Positions 9,607 to 19,505 of a stretch of DNA of 64,000 bases are shown piece after piece. Source of the stretch: Muribaculaceae bacterium (GTDB taxonomy: Bacteria; Bacteroidota; Bacteroidia; Bacteroidales; Muribaculaceae); assembly GCA_029061225.1 (NCBI GenBank), contig JAIDSM010000141.1:1-64000 (forward strand), given 5' to 3'. Below the pieces are notes generated by a model. That model worked only from the letters and a program-made list of their open reading frames with translations, was not told the DNA's origin and did no database searches. The first letter of the stretch is position 1, and each line of letters starts with the position of its first letter. The position numbers and the translations under genes were made by a program.

Positions 9607-10416
9607 TCAAACCACATGTAATTGACAGATTTTCTTAATCCATCCTATAGCTTCTTCTGTACATTCCCAGATCATCTCTTGTCCTATAGTTGCGGATTGG
9701 AAATATTCTTTATTTTCCGGTTGCTTAGGAGAATGACCAATCTTAATTTCTTTAAAGAAATCAGGTAACTTCCACTTTGACCGAGTCATTCCCGAAGCGG
9801 TAAGTATAAGTTCCGGAGAGAATTTCAACATAGAAGCTCCGGGAGCAACCGGTAAAAAATCAAGATGCTCGGTAGGCAAAAATATTGCATCGCTCCGGCT
9901 CCCTTCTTTAATTCTACCGACGTGAGGATGTTCCATTAGCCAATCAGGAATATCATTATCGCCTGATAAGATGCTACCTACCTGCATGTACCCATATATG
10001 AGCTGAATATCGGGAGCGTTTCGTTTATATCTTAACTTTCCAGTCACATATTCTGTCTCACGAAACCAACCGAAAAACAAGAATAAATCTCCTTCTCCAA
10101 AATCATTGTTTCTTAATTCTGACAATGATTGATCAGCCTGTCCAAACGCAGGCTTCCAACCCTCTTTCCTATATTTCACTTCCATTATAAGATCCGGATC
10201 AAGATGACAGCCGCCATCTCTTTTGAGTTGCGTCCGAGGTCTTAATTCTGATATAATATCAAAAAAAGAACGATGATCAATGACAAGAGAGTTATAACGA
10301 TCCTTTCCTGTGCTGTCAGGTATAGGAAACGGAAGTAATGTGCCGTCCGGCAGAATGGCATTCGGCTGCCCTCCGTTCTTAGAATCAAACCCTTTTCTAC
10401 TGAAACTTACTTTCAT
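9607..10416 (-). CDS. Nmad3-like (nucleotide modification associated domain 3) protein
   Basis: MKVSFSRKGFDSKNGGQPNAILPDGTLLPFPIPDS...YGYMQVG; start chosen at the ATGA overlap inside ORF 9607..10425. Confidence 0.7.
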   Translation of the reverse strand: MKVSFSRKGFDSKNGGQPNAILPDGTLLPFPIPDSTGKDRYNSLVIDHRSFFDIISELRPRTQLKRDGGCHLDPDLIMEVKYRKEGWKPAFGQADQSLSELRNNDFGEGDLFLFFGWFRETEYVTGKLRYKRNAPDIQLIYGYMQVGSILSGDNDIPDWLMEHPHVGRIKEGSRSDAIFLPTEHLDFLPVAPGASMLKFSPELILTASGMTRSKWKLPDFFKEIKIGHSPKQPENKEYFQSATIGQEMIWECTEEAIGWIKKICQLHVV

Positions 10417-11165
10417 CTCGCACATCCTTTCTTTTTTTCATTTTTTTGTCTTATGTCGGGTTTAATATCAGAAACATTCTCCCATTCAGTGATGGATGTA
10501 TCAGGATAAGAAACAGGAATATTACCGACAATACCATTTTCTACCCCCATCTTTTTAGCAGAATTCCTAACATATTCAATAAATTCCTCTATTATTGGCT
10601 CTCTCTTCAGACTCTGACCTTTTGCTTTATGAACAAGAGGTCTATAATAATCCGGAACTTCAAGACGGTTATCTCGAGTGAAGTAATAAAACTCCCTACA
10701 CACCAATGAATTTTTACCATACAGATAATCGCGTTTCGCAACCTCGGCACCCTCATGATCACAGGTATTAGGTTCCGCTACCACATTTCCCTCTTTATCC
10801 GTATGCTCTTTATGATAAATATTATCACCAGACCATCTAGCATCGAAAACAGTCACATTCGGATTGCTGCGTTTTTCCGGGAATCTTTTCCAATACTCAT
10901 CCAAAGGAATTTGTTCGTCAATTTTTGCAAGATAGATAAGTTTTTCGTGTCCAGGTTCACATCTATCAATTCCACCTCCATAAACTTCAGAATTGTGAGT
11001 AGTGCATGCCGTCCAACCGGCAATCCATGTACCGTTAACACTGTTTGGACTTCTCCGAATCGATGGCTTGCAGGTTGCAAGCGTAAGTACGCCCCACAGA
11101 GGATTCGGGGCAAACAATGAATCGTGGACAATCTTATATGACCACATTTTTGGTTCTTTTTTCAT
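10413..11165 (-). CDS. Nmad2-like (nucleotide modification associated domain 2) protein
   Basis: YKIVHDSLFAPNPLWGVLTLATCKPSIRRSPNSVNGTWIAGW; ATGA overlap with upstream gene. Confidence 0.7.
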   Translation of the reverse strand: MKKEPKMWSYKIVHDSLFAPNPLWGVLTLATCKPSIRRSPNSVNGTWIAGWTACTTHNSEVYGGGIDRCEPGHEKLIYLAKIDEQIPLDEYWKRFPEKRSNPNVTVFDARWSGDNIYHKEHTDKEGNVVAEPNTCDHEGAEVAKRDYLYGKNSLVCREFYYFTRDNRLEVPDYYRPLVHKAKGQSLKREPIIEEFIEYVRNSAKKMGVENGIVGNIPVSYPDTSITEWENVSDIKPDIRQKNEKKKGCAR

Positions 11166-12316
11166 TTTCTCCAGTTAAATTCTATTCCTAATACTTCGTT
11201 AGCATGATATTTCCAGACTTCCTGATCAAAGTTTGGTGTATAGCGTGACATGACGAGCCGGTCCTCCTTTGTCAATTCATCGGGATGCCAAGGTTGAAAT
11301 CCATAGCATCTCTCCGGAATGCTTACGGGATTATCACACCAATCGAGTTGATAAAAGACTGTCCCTACTCTTGTCATTTTCCTACACATCTCAGGACGTA
11401 TACAATGATTATCAAGAGCAAAGGCATAATATGCCTCTCTCCCTTCCTCATTTCTTCCGAATGTCCCGAGTGCAAAGGTATACTCAGTGCCTCCATCCTT
11501 CAATTCCATCTCTATTACATCTCCTGTGTATATGTAATCTCCATTTGCATCCTTATAAGGTGTCCGCACTCCTGCGAAAATTGCAGGACAGCAATACCCA
11601 CGTCCGCGGCATTCATCCTCAAAATAATCTTCAACTATGTCTTGATTATGAGTTTCTGCAAACTCCTTATTTCGTGTCCAGACATATAAATCACCGGTCC
11701 TCCAGAAAAAGAAATCTCCAAAATCAGCATAACCAAAACGATCACGGTCTATTACATATCTTATATGTATTTCCGGTTTAGGGGCAGCCAGAATTCGCGC
11801 CCCTATGATGTATTTATATTCTTCACATAACCGCTTAAGATCTTCTTCTGTAATAGCCTTTGGTATCTTGACCCTCTTTTTCTCCGGGACTATTCCAAAC
11901 GCAACAGCACTTACAAATACTTCTTTTGTAAGGATAGCCATCCATTTCTTTGGAATGGCAACATTATACAGATCAAGAGCCTTTTGAAAGAGAGGTGCCA
12001 TTTCTTCATCCGAATACCCTGCTGAACCACATCCTACTCTCGTAACTAAAAATCTATTGTCAGGATGAGATCTCGCATATTTTATGAAATTATCTACGTA
12101 TGGTCTAATTTCATCAATTGTCAGATGACTTGTTGGGATAGCATAGCACTTGCCGGTAGGCCCTGCACCGACTCCCCATTCCGCACCAAAACGCTCACAT
12201 GCCATAAGTGAAGCACCTCCGCGATGATGGCCCTTAAGATTACTTCCAAACACAAAAATCTCGCACATCGACAATTCCGTGATTTTTTCGGGTGTTATTC
12301 TTCCTACCATAATCAT
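11162..12316 (-). CDS. macrodomain-like (A1S_2505-like) N-terminus with YopX-like C-terminal region
   Basis: IFVFGSNLKGHHRGGASLMACERFGAEWGVGAGPTGKCYAIPTS; C-terminal TPYKDANGDYIYTGDVIEM; start at ATGA overlap inside ORF 11162..12349. Confidence 0.65.
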   Translation of the reverse strand: MIMVGRITPEKITELSMCEIFVFGSNLKGHHRGGASLMACERFGAEWGVGAGPTGKCYAIPTSHLTIDEIRPYVDNFIKYARSHPDNRFLVTRVGCGSAGYSDEEMAPLFQKALDLYNVAIPKKWMAILTKEVFVSAVAFGIVPEKKRVKIPKAITEEDLKRLCEEYKYIIGARILAAPKPEIHIRYVIDRDRFGYADFGDFFFWRTGDLYVWTRNKEFAETHNQDIVEDYFEDECRGRGYCCPAIFAGVRTPYKDANGDYIYTGDVIEMELKDGGTEYTFALGTFGRNEEGREAYYAFALDNHCIRPEMCRKMTRVGTVFYQLDWCDNPVSIPERCYGFQPWHPDELTKEDRLVMSRYTPNFDQEVWKYHANEVLGIEFNWRK

Positions 12317-13899
12317 TTCTGTGTATAGTTGTCTTTCATTGTCGTACAAATACGTGGAGTGTCAAGATGGCGGGTCGTTGATGAGAAATTGAGGCCGAGC
12401 TTGAAGAGACGGCGCGGGTCGTTGGCATAAGGAAGAGAGTATTGCTTCTGTTCGATCTGGGTCATAGCCTCCTCTGCCGACTTGTCGAACTTAAGCTCTA
12501 TTATATAGATGAATTTCGGAGTTTTCACCACGAGGTCTATGCGGCCGTCTGAGGTATGGACTTCCGTTTCCACTGCAACACCGAGGAGTGTCAGCAGGAT
12601 AAAAAGGGCATTGTGAAGATTGTTCTCATCATCCATCTTCATCTCGTATGGTATACCGGCCAGGAAAATGTCAAGATCCTTTACAAATTTCTCCGGTTTG
12701 CCAGTCCTCAGATCCATAATGATATTCTGCACCACTAAATCAGCCGTGCTACGTCGGGTCTTGACGTAATATGGAAGAAGGTCGTCGAAAAGAGACTGCC
12801 GTACTTCAAGATTTGGAACACCGAGTGTAACGTAGTCAGATTCAAAATCATAGTCCTTTATAGTTATGTAGCCTGTTTGATAAAGCAATGCCACGGGATT
12901 GGCGCTTTTCAGGTCAAGTCCTTCAAGAGTGTACATGGACACAATAGACGTCAATATTCCCTCTAAGTCAGCATCTACATTTTTCAATGCCTCAGCAATT
13001 ATGGTCGCTTTTCCCGAACGTCCCCAATAATTGGAGATACTCCTGTCCTGCATGGCATTGAGAACAGACCAAGGATTGTAAATGTCACTTCCTGTCTTTG
13101 CAAATCTGTAGCCGTCATAATTTTTTTTAAGTAAGCCATAGGTCTCCTCATAGGATATTTCATTTTCTTCTGCAAAAGCTCTTATTCCCTCCTTAAAATT
13201 ATCCAGAAGTTCCTTCTCTGTGATTCCGCATATATCCGAAAATTCATTTACAAATGTTATATCCCGGATATTATTGAGGTCGGAAAATATGCTAAGCTTA
13301 CTGAATCGACTGACTCCCGTCAGGAATACAAGCCTGATATGCTCAGCCGAGCTCTTGAAGTTGGAATAAACCGATGCAAGTTTAGCTTGATAATGCTCAA
13401 AAGTTTCATCCACATTGAGATTTCCGACAAGTGGCTTGTCGTATTCATCTACAAGAATGACGACCTGTCGACCGGTCTTTTCATGAGCGGTCGCTATGAT
13501 ATTTTGAAAACGTGTGGAAAGGGTTTCCGCTGTTTCCTGAATGCCGTATTCTTTCTCCCACTTCTTGAAAGTATTGTCAAGCAATGAATCAAGAAGACCC
13601 GGAACCTCATACTTTTCGGTATTGAGGTCAAGTCTTAAGACAGGATACGGCTTCCAATCCCAGTCGGTAGAATCAATATAGAGGCCCTTGAAGAGTTCTC
13701 TTCTACCCTTAAAGAAATACTGCAGGGAAGACAGAAAAAGACTCTTGCCGAACCGACGCGGACGGGCAAGGAAATAATATTTGTGTCCTGAAGAGATAAT
13801 CTTTTCTATATATTGAGTCTTGTCAACATACAGACAACCCATCTCTATTAGAGATTTGAAGTCCTGTTCTCCTATCGGGTATTTCACTGTGTCTGCCAT
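12313..13899 (-). CDS. DUF1703-type AAA-ATPase-like/PD-(D/E)XK protein, second copy
   Basis: YPIGEQDFKSLIEMGCLYVDKTQYIEKI, ARPRRFGKSLFLSSL, GRIDLVVKTPKFIYIIELKFD. Confidence 0.9.
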   Translation of the reverse strand: MADTVKYPIGEQDFKSLIEMGCLYVDKTQYIEKIISSGHKYYFLARPRRFGKSLFLSSLQYFFKGRRELFKGLYIDSTDWDWKPYPVLRLDLNTEKYEVPGLLDSLLDNTFKKWEKEYGIQETAETLSTRFQNIIATAHEKTGRQVVILVDEYDKPLVGNLNVDETFEHYQAKLASVYSNFKSSAEHIRLVFLTGVSRFSKLSIFSDLNNIRDITFVNEFSDICGITEKELLDNFKEGIRAFAEENEISYEETYGLLKKNYDGYRFAKTGSDIYNPWSVLNAMQDRSISNYWGRSGKATIIAEALKNVDADLEGILTSIVSMYTLEGLDLKSANPVALLYQTGYITIKDYDFESDYVTLGVPNLEVRQSLFDDLLPYYVKTRRSTADLVVQNIIMDLRTGKPEKFVKDLDIFLAGIPYEMKMDDENNLHNALFILLTLLGVAVETEVHTSDGRIDLVVKTPKFIYIIELKFDKSAEEAMTQIEQKQYSLPYANDPRRLFKLGLNFSSTTRHLDTPRICTTMKDNYTQK

Positions 13900-13974
13900 A
13901 TTTCCTCTTTTTAATGCAAAGATACGTTTTTTTTAATTATCTTGCAAATGAAAAAATTTTTACATCAAAATTAT

Positions 13975-14006
13975 TTTGTCGGAATGGAATTTTTGTATTA
14001 ACTTTG
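13975..14006 (+). promoter_or_regulatory. Bacteroidetes-type promoter of thiamine operon
   Basis: TTTG - 20 bp - TAACTTTG. Confidence 0.65.
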
Positions 14007-14052
14007 CCGATGGATTGGATGCTTGAGTGCTTCCAATCATGTTAATAATATA

Positions 14053-14135
14053 AACAGGGGTGTCTCTTTCCGGACACGGAATTGAGGCTGAGATTATACC
14101 CTATGAACTTGAAGCGGATAATACCGACGAAAGGA
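14053..14135 (+). promoter_or_regulatory. TPP riboswitch (THI element)
   Basis: aacaggggtg...ctgagattataccc...gaacttgaagcggataataccgacgaaagga. Confidence 0.93.
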
Positions 14136-14142
14136 GATTTTT

Positions 14143-14346
14143 ATGAAACTATTTGTAAACCAAAAGGAATACCATACGGATTCCAACCAATTGACAGTCG
14201 AAGAACTGCTCAATGAGATTCAGTCACTGAAGCCCGGCGTGGCAGTGGCGGTAAACGATAAAGTGGTGAGAAAAGTGAACTGGAATAGTACACTGCTCAC
14301 CGAGGGAGATCAGATTACCGTTATCACTGCAGTCTGCGGCGGCTGA
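14143..14346 (+). CDS. thiS: sulfur carrier protein ThiS
   Basis: 67 aa ending VITAVCGG; after TPP riboswitch. Confidence 0.95.
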   Translation: MKLFVNQKEYHTDSNQLTVEELLNEIQSLKPGVAVAVNDKVVRKVNWNSTLLTEGDQITVITAVCGG

Positions 14347-15470
14347 TGAAACTCATTGCAATCACAACGCCCGACTTCTTGCAGGAAGAAGACCTTGCCA
14401 TCCGCCGTCTTATCGACCGCGGATGGAATCGCGTGCATATACGCAAACCTGAGGCAGCTCGTGAGCAGTTAATCGGACTCATTGAAAGGATTCCCGTAAC
14501 ATACCGCCAATACATCTCCATTCATGATCATTTAGACCTTGCAGTCAAATACAACCTTGGTGGTGTACACCTCAATAGTAGGAATCCTTTTCCGCCGGTC
14601 GGGTGGAAAGGACTTATAAGCCGCAGTTGTCACTCCATAGAAGAGATCAAAAAATTTCCGGATCTTGACTATCTAACGCTCAGCCCAATCTTCGACAGTA
14701 TATCGAAACCCGGATATAAAAGCCGGTTCTCTCTGGAAACACTGAAAAATACGAATCTAAAGAATGTATATGCCTTGGGAGGTGTGACATTTTCGCAACT
14801 CCATAAACTAAAGGAAATAGGATTTGAGGGAGCCGCGATGCTTTCCGAGGCATGGAAAACCAAAATGGATCCACTTCAATATATTACCCATACCGATGCA
14901 GGACTTGAGGAAGCTCTGCGTGGAGGCTGCCGCTGGGTGCAGCTAAGAATGAAAGATGCCTCAGACTACGAATTCATCAGGATGGCTGGAAAGATTCTTC
15001 CTATATGCCGGAAATATAATGCTGTTCTTATAATCGACGACAGGGTGCATCTTGTAGACGCAATCGGAGCCGACGGCGTACATCTCGGAAAAAAAGACAT
15101 GCCGGTCAGGGAGGCAAGAAAGATACTCGGACCAGCAAAAATCATCGGAGCGACGGCAAATACCGAAGAAGACATACTCAATGCTAATGAAGACGGAGCC
15201 GACTATATCGGATTAGGGCCTTTCCGCTTCACGATAACTAAAAAAGGGCTCTCCCCTATTCTTGGTATTCAAGGATACGGAAGGATAATGTCTCACTGCA
15301 GGAATCGCGGCATCACGCTGCCCGTTGTCGCCATAGGAGGCATCACACTCGAAGATATCGGAGCACTGAGCCAAACGGGAGTTGACGGCATTGCAGTGTC
15401 CGGACTGATATTAACTTCAGAAGACAAAGAATCTACAACTAAAGAAATACTGAGATTATGGAAAAACTGA
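14346..15470 (+). CDS. thiE: fusion: TenI-like/ThiE-like N-terminal domain plus thiamine-phosphate synthase ThiE C-terminal domain
   Basis: Two ThiE-fold halves: [32 protein letters not shown] and [47 protein letters not shown]. Confidence 0.9.
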
Positions 15471-16225
15471 CAATAGGAGGACATGAATTCGGTAGCCGGT
15501 TGTTTGTCGGCACCGGTAAATTCAGCTCCAACAAACTGATGGAAGAAGCCATAAAGGCTTCCGGAAGCGAGATGGTGACAGTAGCGCTGAAGAGGATTGA
15601 CACAGAAAACAGTGAGGACGATATGCTCCGCCATGTATTGTTGCCGGGCATTCAGCTTCTCCCCAATACTTCAGGAGTAAGAAACGCCAAAGAGGCGGTC
15701 TTGGCGGCACAGCTCGCCCGCGAGGCTTTCGAGACGGATTTCATAAAACTCGAGATTCATCCTGATCCCAAGTATCTCCTGCCCGACCCCATCGAAACCC
15801 TTAAGGCAACCGAACAACTTGCCAAAGAGGGCTTCATAGTGCTTCCCTATATCCAGGCAGACCCGGTGCTCTGCAAACGCCTTGAAGAAGCCGGCACTTC
15901 GGCGGTCATGCCGCTCGCCGCTCCAATAGGCACGAACAAAGGTCTGGTGGTGAAAGACATGATTGAAATAATAATCGCTGAGAGTCGGGTGCCTGTGGTA
16001 GTGGATGCCGGTCTCGGAGCACCGTCTCATGCCGCCGAGGCTATGGAGATGGGTGCCGACGCAGTGCTCGTCAATACGGCAATAGCCATCGCCGGGAATC
16101 CTGTCGCTATGGCACGCGCGTTCGCTAAGGCTGTGGAAGCCGGACGTGAAGCATTTGAAGCCGGGCTCGGTATTAAATCGGATATAGCAGTAGCAAGCAG
16201 TCCCTTAACTTCATTTTTAAGCTGA
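15458..16225 (+). CDS. thiG: thiazole synthase
   Basis: [42 protein letters not shown]. Confidence 0.96.
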
Positions 16226-17334
16226 TGTTTTCTGAAGTATTATCTCATTATGACTGGCAGGAGACAACCGACAGAATACTATCTAAGACAGCGTCCGACG
16301 TCGAGCGTGCCCTCTCGAAAAGAAATCCCGGCATAGAGGATTTCATGGCCCTCGTCTCCCCTGCCGCCGAGCCATATCTCGAAAATATGGCCGTGCTCAG
16401 CCGATACTATACTCATGAAAGATTCGGAAAGACAATTTCCATGTATATTCCGATGTATATCACCAATTCATGCACAAACTCCTGTGTCTACTGTGGCTTC
16501 AACCGCCATAATAAATTCGAACGGGTCATACTCTCCATGTCTCAGATAGAGGATGAATGCAAGGCTATCAGAAAACTCGCCCCATTTGAGAATCTTCTCC
16601 TTGTTACGGGTGAGAATCCGAAGATGGCAGGAACGGACTATCTTGAAAAAGCATTGAAAACCTGCCGCCCATACTTCAACAATCTCTCGATGGAAGTAAT
16701 GCCTCTCCGGACGGAAGATTACGAACGTCTCACACACTCCGGCCTCAACGGAGTAGTCTGCTTTCAGGAAACATACAACAGAAACAAATACAAGACCTAT
16801 CATCCGGCAGGGATGAAATCCAACTTTGAATGGAGAGTAAATGGCTTCGACCGCATGGGAACTGCAGGTCTCCACAAAATTGGAATGGGCGTACTGATAG
16901 GGCTTGAAGACTGGCGTACCGATGTAACAATGATGGCACTTCATTTACGCTACCTTCAGAAACATTATTGGCGTTCACGCTTCAGTGTCAACTTCCCCAG
17001 GATGCGCCCTGCCGCAGGAGGTTTTCAGCCTAATGTCGTGATGACCGACAAAGAACTCGCCCAACTGACATTCGCATTCCGTATCTTCGACCATGACGTG
17101 GATATTTCTTATTCTACAAGAGAATACCCAAACTTCCGCGACAATATGATGGCTCTTGGGGTAACCTCGATGAGTGCCGGGTCGAAGACAGATCCCGGTG
17201 GGTATTACACATATCCGCAATCGCTGGAGCAATTCGCTGTCAGCGATGAGAGAACTCCGCAAGAGGTTGCTGTAGCTATCCGTAAAGGTGGCTATGAAGT
17301 GGTTTGGAAAGACTGGGATAAAGTTTTTGACTGA
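16225..17334 (+). CDS. thiH: 2-iminoacetate synthase (radical SAM)
   Basis: NSCTNSCVYCGFNRHNKFER radical SAM motif; FSVNFPRMRPAAGGFQP. Confidence 0.95.
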   Translation: MFSEVLSHYDWQETTDRILSKTASDVERALSKRNPGIEDFMALVSPAAEPYLENMAVLSRYYTHERFGKTISMYIPMYITNSCTNSCVYCGFNRHNKFERVILSMSQIEDECKAIRKLAPFENLLLVTGENPKMAGTDYLEKALKTCRPYFNNLSMEVMPLRTEDYERLTHSGLNGVVCFQETYNRNKYKTYHPAGMKSNFEWRVNGFDRMGTAGLHKIGMGVLIGLEDWRTDVTMMALHLRYLQKHYWRSRFSVNFPRMRPAAGGFQPNVVMTDKELAQLTFAFRIFDHDVDISYSTREYPNFRDNMMALGVTSMSAGSKTDPGGYYTYPQSLEQFAVSDERTPQEVAVAIRKGGYEVVWKDWDKVFD

Positions 17335-17335
17335 A

Positions 17336-18025
17336 ATGGAAAGATATTCACGGCAGATTATGCTCACAGAGATCGGCAAGGAGGGGCAGGAAAAGCTTTT
17401 CAAGGCATCAGTGCTTATTGTTGGTCTCGGAGGACTCGGATCTCCTGTTGCGCTCTATCTTACAGGAGCCGGAATAGGAAGAATCGGTCTTTGCGATAAA
17501 GATACTGTCTCAATCAGCAATCTGCAACGACAGATACTCTATAGCGAAGAAACAGAAGGACGGTCCAAAACAACCATAGCGAGCCACCGTCTTTCCGAAC
17601 TATCTTCACATACAAGATTTGACCTCTGGAAAGATGGACTTACGACCGAGAATGCGAAGGAAATAATCTCAGAATACGACCTGGTAATTGACTGCACCGA
17701 CAACCATAAGACCCGTTATCTGATCGATGATGTCTGCTTTAAACTCAACAAGACATGGATTTACGGCGCAATCGAAGGATTTGATGGTAGAGTATCTACG
17801 TTCGGCAAGAATGGATTTCGATATTCCCATCTTTTCCCGGAAAGAGAGTCACTTTCGATGTTACCTAACGCCGCAGGTGGAGTGATAGGTCCACTCCCCG
17901 GCATAATCGGATCTCTTCAGGCAGCGGAGGCGATCAAACTCATATGCGGATTCGGCAATACCCTTGTCGGGAAACTTCTTCTTTTCAATCTAAAGGAAAT
18001 AACTCTAAAAATACTTGAACTATGA
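17336..18025 (+). CDS. thiF: ThiF/HesA/MoeB family adenylyltransferase
   Basis: MERYSRQIMLTEIGKEGQEKL, LIVGLGGLGSPVALYL, CTDNHKTRYLI. Confidence 0.9.
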   Translation: MERYSRQIMLTEIGKEGQEKLFKASVLIVGLGGLGSPVALYLTGAGIGRIGLCDKDTVSISNLQRQILYSEETEGRSKTTIASHRLSELSSHTRFDLWKDGLTTENAKEIISEYDLVIDCTDNHKTRYLIDDVCFKLNKTWIYGAIEGFDGRVSTFGKNGFRYSHLFPERESLSMLPNAAGGVIGPLPGIIGSLQAAEAIKLICGFGNTLVGKLLLFNLKEITLKILEL

Positions 18026-18675
18026 CTGAAAAATACAAATGGAGCGATGAGGCCTGGAAGGCCGCATCACCCGTCTATCAGGAAATACTTAACCTTCCGT
18101 TCGTTCGGCAGCTGGCTGAAGGAACCCTCTCCGGTGATAGGTTTAATTTCTATATCGAGCAAGACTCAATCTACGTTGAGAACTATTGCCGCGTGTTGGC
18201 ACACATAGCGTCGCGTCTTTCGCACCAGGAACACATTGCCGACTTCCTCAAATTCGCATCAATCGGGGTCGAGGTGGAAAAAATCTTGCATGAGACATAT
18301 CTCGGATCCGGACACTCCATAACATGTCCAACTCCTACTACTCTGCTTTACAACTCTTACGAATCGGCTAAAGGACTGGGACCGGTAGAGATAGAATCTG
18401 CCTCCATCCTGCCCTGCTTCTGGGTCTATCAGAAAGTTGGAGAGCATATCTTTAAGACTTGCTCGCCCGACAATCCATATCACCGATGGATCGAGACATA
18501 CGCAGACAAGGAGTTTGAAAAGTCGACATTGAGGGCGATTGAGATATGTGACGAACTGGCGGAAAACGCCTCAGATGTGATACGCAGACAGATGACGGAG
18601 GCTTTCGTCATGGCTACGCGCATGGAATGGATGTTCTGGAACAGCGCATACAATCTTGAAAAATGGGAAATATGA
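18022..18675 (+). CDS. tenA: TenA family protein (aminopyrimidine aminohydrolase-like)
   Basis: FYIEQDSIYVENYCRVLA, ILPCFWVYQKVGEHI with Cys-type active-site region. Confidence 0.9.
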   Translation: MTEKYKWSDEAWKAASPVYQEILNLPFVRQLAEGTLSGDRFNFYIEQDSIYVENYCRVLAHIASRLSHQEHIADFLKFASIGVEVEKILHETYLGSGHSITCPTPTTLLYNSYESAKGLGPVEIESASILPCFWVYQKVGEHIFKTCSPDNPYHRWIETYADKEFEKSTLRAIEICDELAENASDVIRRQMTEAFVMATRMEWMFWNSAYNLEKWEI

Positions 18676-19499
18676 GACCACGAGAATACAAAAGGGTCAT
18701 GACCATCGCCGGGAGCGATCCAAGCGGAGGAGCCGGAGTGCAGGCCGACATAAAGACAATCTCAGCCTGCGGATGCTACGCCACATCAGCGATAGCAGCC
18801 CTGGTGGAGGAGAACACAATGGGAGTCTATGGTGTATTCCCGGTGCCTGACGCATTTGTTGCTGCTCAGATATATGCGATTCTTGACGATATCGGGACGG
18901 ACGCCGTCAAAATCGGAATGCTGCATTCCACAGAACTGATCCGCGCTGTTAAGACTGCACTTGACCGATATCCGGAGATAACAGATATAGTCCTCGATCC
19001 AGTGATGGTTGCTACTTCTGGTGATCCCCTGCTTGAAGAAGAAGCCATAGCGACTCTTCGAGACGAGCTAATTCCGAGGAGCCGGATAATCACCCCCAAT
19101 ATTCCCGAGGCTGAAATACTTCTGGGACGAAGTATCCGCAGTCAGGAGGAATTGCCTGATGCAGCCGCCGAACTGTCTCGGCTTGGTGCTTCCGTACTCT
19201 TAAAAGCCGGCCATCTGTCAGATGAGCGACTTATCGATATACTTTATAATGCAGAGACTAATGAGACCATCTATTTGGAATCAAAACGCATAGATACGGT
19301 CAACACTCATGGGACAGGATGTACGCTCTCATCAGCAATAGCTTCATTTCTTGCTAAGGGAAATGCTCTTAACGATTCCGTAAAACTTGCCAAAGATTAT
19401 ATCTCGAAGGCAATAGAATCAGGAGCTCAATACAAGATCGGCAAAGGACATGGCCCCGTCAACCATTTCCACAATAAAATTTTTGAAAAAATTCTTTAG
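18663..19499 (+). CDS. thiD: bifunctional HMP kinase/HMP-P kinase
   Basis: TIAGSDPSGGAGVQADIKTISACGCYATSAI; VNTHGTGCTLSSAIASFLA. Confidence 0.95.
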   Translation: MGNMRPREYKRVMTIAGSDPSGGAGVQADIKTISACGCYATSAIAALVEENTMGVYGVFPVPDAFVAAQIYAILDDIGTDAVKIGMLHSTELIRAVKTALDRYPEITDIVLDPVMVATSGDPLLEEEAIATLRDELIPRSRIITPNIPEAEILLGRSIRSQEELPDAAAELSRLGASVLLKAGHLSDERLIDILYNAETNETIYLESKRIDTVNTHGTGCTLSSAIASFLAKGNALNDSVKLAKDYISKAIESGAQYKIGKGHGPVNHFHNKIFEKIL

Positions 19500-19505
19500 T
19501 CAGAA

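Follow-up and report, generated by a model that had tools for sequence, protein, structure and literature searches.

The names of the Nmad protein families are said to originate in a 2013 paper on base modification. Literature searches by name for Nmad2, Nmad3 and A1S_2505 returned nothing on function, and no description of a stable Nmad2-Nmad3 pairing, sometimes accompanied by a full-length A1S-type protein, was found in the literature searched. Among described proteins, the ASCH, EVE and YTH domains are nucleic-acid binders of the PUA superfamily, several of which read modified bases, and a published pattern associates EVE domains both with HTH-WYL regulators and with nucleases (PMC7641849). 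A validated anti-phage system also includes a nucleotide-modification-associated domain, its Nmad type unspecified (PMC13092281).

This article concerns a run of four open reading frames (ORFs) in a 64,000-nucleotide stretch of the genome of a Muribaculaceae bacterium, the whole of which is referred to here as the window. An earlier note on this DNA had read the run as a single operon of four functionally related genes. The best overall explanation, held here with moderate confidence, is that one of its junctions is a relic of recombination, and that the remaining genes form a WYL-controlled cassette for sensing modified nucleic acids, possibly anti-phage in role, whose regulator has been lost in this genome.

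Gene Organization

The features discussed in this article are as follows.

9607-10416, minus strand: Nmad3 (PF18754), 269 aa; Pfam match 5.6e-53
10413-11165, minus strand: Nmad2 (PF18753), 250 aa; Pfam match 1.9e-32
11162-12316, minus strand: A1S_2505-like protein, 384 aa; NF049995 match 1.2e-39, PHROG 2072 match 3.2e-36
12313-13899, minus strand: DUF1703 protein (AAA-ATPase_like + PDDEXK_9), 528 aa; PF09820 match 9.1e-63, PF08011 match 1.6e-17
12313-12354, minus strand: remnant of a WYL regulator gene, its final ~12 codons, which now form the C-terminal end of the DUF1703 ORF
12353-12356, no strand: recombination junction between a WYL-trio locus and a DUF1703-thi locus, from homology end points and flank comparison
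12354-19503, no strand: inserted block with DUF1703, a TPP riboswitch and thiS-thiE-thiG-thiH-thiF-tenA-thiD, collinear with L188, L189 and L191
7959-19589, no strand: variable island from rplT to the Bacteroidales-1 (6S-like) RNA and nitroreductase gene, from comparison with relatives

All four ORFs lie on the minus strand and adjoin at 4-nt ATGA junctions (12313-12316, 11162-11165 and 10413-10416). The genes, coordinates and three overlaps given in the earlier note were all confirmed in the sequence, and profile matches in Pfam and NCBIfam bear out its assignments to the A1S_2505, Nmad2, Nmad3 and DUF1703 families. The Nmad3 start at 10416 agrees with that of nearly all homologues. The TPP riboswitch is an RF00059 match at 14046-14152, and the thi gene names in the window were assigned by homology and gene order. 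The A1S_2505-like protein (A1S), Nmad2 and Nmad3 are together termed the trio.

Distribution of the Trio

As gene order indicates, the real recurring unit is A1S-Nmad2-Nmad3, and not a four-gene system that includes DUF1703. The trio is present in the window and in four other loci (L032, L033, L101 and L102), representing five genomes from at least three families, and the proposal of a recurrent, uncatalogued cassette is in this respect upheld. The most widespread pair is Nmad2-Nmad3: apart from the window, 14 of the loci fetched have the two genes as neighbours in the same orientation. Most of these 14 pairs overlap or lie within a few bases of each other, five of them by the same 4-nt overlap (L024, L033, L098, L099 and L101), a closeness of packing that evidently exceeds chance.

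Occurrence across genomes is sparse, with Nmad2 in 3 of 111 genomes of the genus (G881, G879 and the window's own) and Nmad3 in 9 of 394 genomes of the order and 15 of 398 of the phylum (the window's genome included). A gene for a WYL-domain regulator stands beside the trio in the two genus relatives only, L101 and L102 carrying the trio without it. Nmad3 appears to be host-side, since none of 50,697 phage records matched it; it was found in 3 plasmid records, and the A1S protein had partial matches in 374 of the phage records. PADLOC returned no match for A1S, Nmad2 or Nmad3, and weak partial matches only for DUF1703.

Several of these loci have features of their own. Directly downstream of the trio in L102 (8391-9212) is a GIY-YIG-like gene (E 0.0012, below the cut-off), a candidate effector in that lineage, and the Nmad3 protein of L128 (758-2068) has a long C-terminal extension. 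Near Nmad3, both L128 and L103 show HNH-like motifs by eye (in L103:7997-8644, a gene adjacent to Nmad3 with a CxxC...HNH look); these were set aside, as they had no nuclease match in Pfam. In L099 (4105-8518), from a different family, Nmad2-Nmad3 lies near thiamine genes (ThiE-like, 3.6e-107, and ThiD-like by eye), a proximity that may be coincidental or reflect a common hotspot.

Families and Predicted Folds

Both Nmad proteins of the window match their Pfam profiles over their full length and far above the gathering scores, at 112.9 bits against 26.1 for Nmad2 and 180.5 bits against 27 for Nmad3. AlphaFold (AF2) models were of good quality for Nmad3 (pLDDT 89.2) and fair for Nmad2 (76.9). 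In Foldseek searches no match of either model reached the threshold applied (E 0.001), and the leading ones had TM-scores of about 0.2-0.5. The top six matches of the Nmad2 model were Zymomonas ASCH domains (best E 0.042), followed by the human TRIP4 ASCH domain and numerous YTH domains, interspersed with some unrelated proteins; for the Nmad3 model, ASCH domains and the EVE protein PH1033 were among the leading matches (best E 0.17). Because ASCH, EVE and YTH domains recur independently for both proteins, the PUA-like signal is taken as real but unproven, and Nmad2 and Nmad3 are predicted to be PUA-like (ASCH/EVE/YTH) by consistency rather than by significance. Comparison of the Nmad3 and Nmad2 profiles by hhalign gave no relation, and no relatives turned up in the PDB when it was searched by sequence, either with the proteins or with their profiles. 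Strictly conserved polar motifs in Nmad3 are SRKGxD, HxDPD and GQE.

The A1S-like protein consists of a macro-like N-terminal domain, which matches NF049995 (A1S_2505_Nterm) at 134.9 bits against a cut-off of 45 (residues 20-125), and a conserved C-terminal part of ~255 aa that has no family match. Full-length homologues are encoded in L032, L033, L101, L102 and L139. The earlier note had described this protein as macrodomain-like or YopX-like. Weak support for the former comes from a collinear hhalign pairing of the N-terminal domain with 13 macrodomain sequences (P = 0.0086), but the hhalign probability was just 4.7% and there was no macrodomain match in Pfam; the YopX-like domain, with no Pfam match at E up to 1, is not supported.

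Proposed Function

In the proposed mechanism, Nmad2 and Nmad3 would be readers of the PUA superfamily that bind a modified base, whether within nucleic acid or in nucleotide form, and the macro-like A1S domain would bind or process a ligand of the nucleotide or ADP-ribose type. The WYL protein would sense a ligand and control the cassette, with release when foreign modified nucleic acid appears. Function as a WYL-regulated cassette of this kind is a tentative proposal, with the balance of probability somewhat against it, and the trio's want of a nuclease or obvious effector counts against it. It is doubtful that A1S-Nmad2-Nmad3, joined by WYL in certain lineages, constitutes a hitherto undescribed immune cassette of the host that confers defence without an obvious nuclease; on such a reading the two PUA-like proteins would recognize a base modification of phage type and the macro-like protein would process a nucleotide signal.

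A similarly low probability attaches to the suggestion that Nmad2, Nmad3 and A1S serve to produce or edit a modified base in the host's own DNA, not to sense a foreign modification. The Nmad names in Pfam stem from nucleotide-modification proposals, and the conserved Nmad3 motifs could be catalytic; however, the distribution described above (3/111 genus genomes by Nmad2 and 9/394 of the order by Nmad3) is very patchy, and the cassette lacks a methyltransferase, base-synthesis or transferase gene. There is only a slim chance that the trio is a toxin-antitoxin-like module centred on the macrodomain, as in DarTG, with A1S reversing a modification that Nmad2 or Nmad3 had introduced: the tight gene overlaps and the collinear pairing of the macro-like N-terminal motif would suit such a module, but no ADP-ribosyltransferase was among the best matches of either Nmad model, and Nmad2-Nmad3 often occurs without A1S, which would not be permissible for an antitoxin.

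Variable Island and Recombination Junction

The nitroreductase gene comes immediately after rplT in the relatives L112, L115 and L116 and, to judge by position, in L113. In the window, rplT and the Bacteroidales-1 (6S-like) RNA (RF01693, 19590-19784) are 11.6 kb apart, and G881 has at the same position a different gene set that includes WYL-A1S-Nmad2-Nmad3. The RF01693 RNA, for which a 6S role has been suggested, marks the far edge of the island, and the gap between rplT and this RNA looks like an insertion hotspot in the genus. Other genes of the window's island include a CAT-like gene and a HEPN-MNT pair (PF05168 and PF01909, 8717-9496). The pair follows Nmad3 closely in the same orientation, and its MNT gene matches the PADLOC candidate PDC-S09 (3e-13); it is missing beside the trio in G881, and L099 has a HEPN-MNT pair ~2.7 kb from Nmad2-Nmad3.

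Within the genus, the DUF1703 genes most similar to that of the window (84-87% amino acid identity over the stretches fetched) stand divergent from a thiSEGHF-tenA-thiD operon in G879, G865 and G868 (L188, L189 and L191). The arrangement of DUF1703 and thi genes in the window is the same, and the window DNA is collinear with the L189 locus down to 12355. The DUF1703 ATPase family has 30 matches in the window's genome, and DUF1703 genes can be found in tandem arrays beside the thi operon or one another (window 12313-13899, L189:6497-9729 and L190:1-6065).

In G881 and G879, both Porphyromonadaceae MAGs with an Nmad3 83% identical to that of the window, the first gene at the trio is a WYL-domain regulator, identified by profile (PF13280 at 1e-14 and 5e-17, plus PF25583). 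Homology of the window to the WYL-A1S locus L032 begins at 12353, so that the junction is resolved to ~2 nt. The C-terminus of the DUF1703 protein, RICTTMKDNYTQK, is identical at 7 of 13 positions to SICSAMKTNYNLK of one WYL protein (BLOSUM 38, shuffle p 5e-6), that of the other being EICSAMKNNYKIK; the tail scores 38-39 against the WYL proteins, and 27 other DUF1703 tails of the same genome score at most -1. Upstream of the A1S start, the window resembles the WYL genes for ~40 nt and then falls to random level, whereas the two WYL genes keep matching each other beyond that point. On the other side, the sequence is again collinear with G881 from 19504 onwards, five bases past the thiD stop (19499), leaving ~7.15 kb (12354-19503) in place of ~1.5 kb with the WYL gene and the region upstream of it. 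Both parental loci are present separately in G879, with thi and DUF1703 on C163 (L188) and WYL-A1S-Nmad2-Nmad3 on C331 (L110/L033). No close WYL copy was found elsewhere in the window's genome, an incomplete bin, where the best full-length match has 32% identity.

Since the last ~12 WYL codons are fused in frame to DUF1703, the overlap between DUF1703 and A1S is a relic of the WYL-A1S overlap. A block with DUF1703 and the thi operon was joined into the cassette locus, with deletion of the WYL gene bar these codons, and it is highly probable from the flank comparisons that the WYL gene of the cassette was replaced in this way. With the regulator gone, the trio is probably transcribed from the DUF1703 promoter. 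A misassembly of the metagenome-like bin is unlikely as the source of the junction. The genome is a fragmented, incomplete draft (85.75% complete, 287 contigs), the arrangement is seen in it alone, and in G879 the two parental loci lie apart; but collinearity with G881 holds at both outer flanks (95% on the rplT side and 91% on the nitroreductase side, the latter resuming right after thiD), and an assembly error would have to consist of two independent wrong joins, both at the correct locus.

Replacement of the WYL gene also bears on the coupling that the earlier note had proposed between the DUF1703 ATPase/nuclease and the modified-base-linked proteins, which did not stand: the DUF1703-A1S overlap is seen in the window's genome only, and is explained by the junction, an outcome of the kind that the note itself had named as refuting its proposal. 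The order DUF1703-A1S-Nmad2-Nmad3 was likewise confined to the window in the neighbourhood survey, with WYL in place of DUF1703 in G881 and G879, and none of the other Nmad or A1S loci fetched has DUF1703 within 3 genes, the sole other match being 12 genes off. The DUF1703 gene, by these comparisons, is not part of the cassette; in relatives it resides at the thi locus. A true four-gene system with the DUF1703 ATPase/PD-(D/E)XK protein as effector of the trio, for which the ATGA overlap, the co-orientation, the PD-(D/E)XK domain and the intact fused ORF (which leaves room for a function acquired after fusion) might be cited, is largely refuted and scarcely credible in view of the survey, the thi-operon location of the orthologues and the WYL-derived sequence of the overlap itself.

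A gene overlap can thus be a fossil of recombination and not evidence of common function, and a tempting false link is corrected here. In its place a real recurrent cassette is identified, and two uncharacterized Nmad proteins gain a testable hypothesis of fold and binding.

Comparison With Known Systems

The window protein shares the full domain architecture of DUF1703 proteins (AAA-ATPase_like + PDDEXK_9), but its C-terminal ~12 residues have given way to those of a WYL protein. With the A1S_2505 family of phage non-structural proteins (NF049995, PHROG 2072) the cassette protein has the N-terminal domain in common; the best phage records cover 35-50% of the query, and the extra ~255-aa C-terminal part sets the cassette protein apart. 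The EVE, ASCH and YTH readers (PMC7641849) resemble the cassette in that they supply most of the top structural matches of both Nmad models and in the pairing with a WYL-domain regulator within the genus, but the sequence families are distinct (PF18753 and PF18754), the fold match is sub-threshold, and in the cassette two different predicted readers adjoin without a nuclease. Finally, the window proteins are full-length members of the Pfam families Nmad2 and Nmad3, which are here stably paired and, in some genomes, accompanied by a full-length A1S-type protein.
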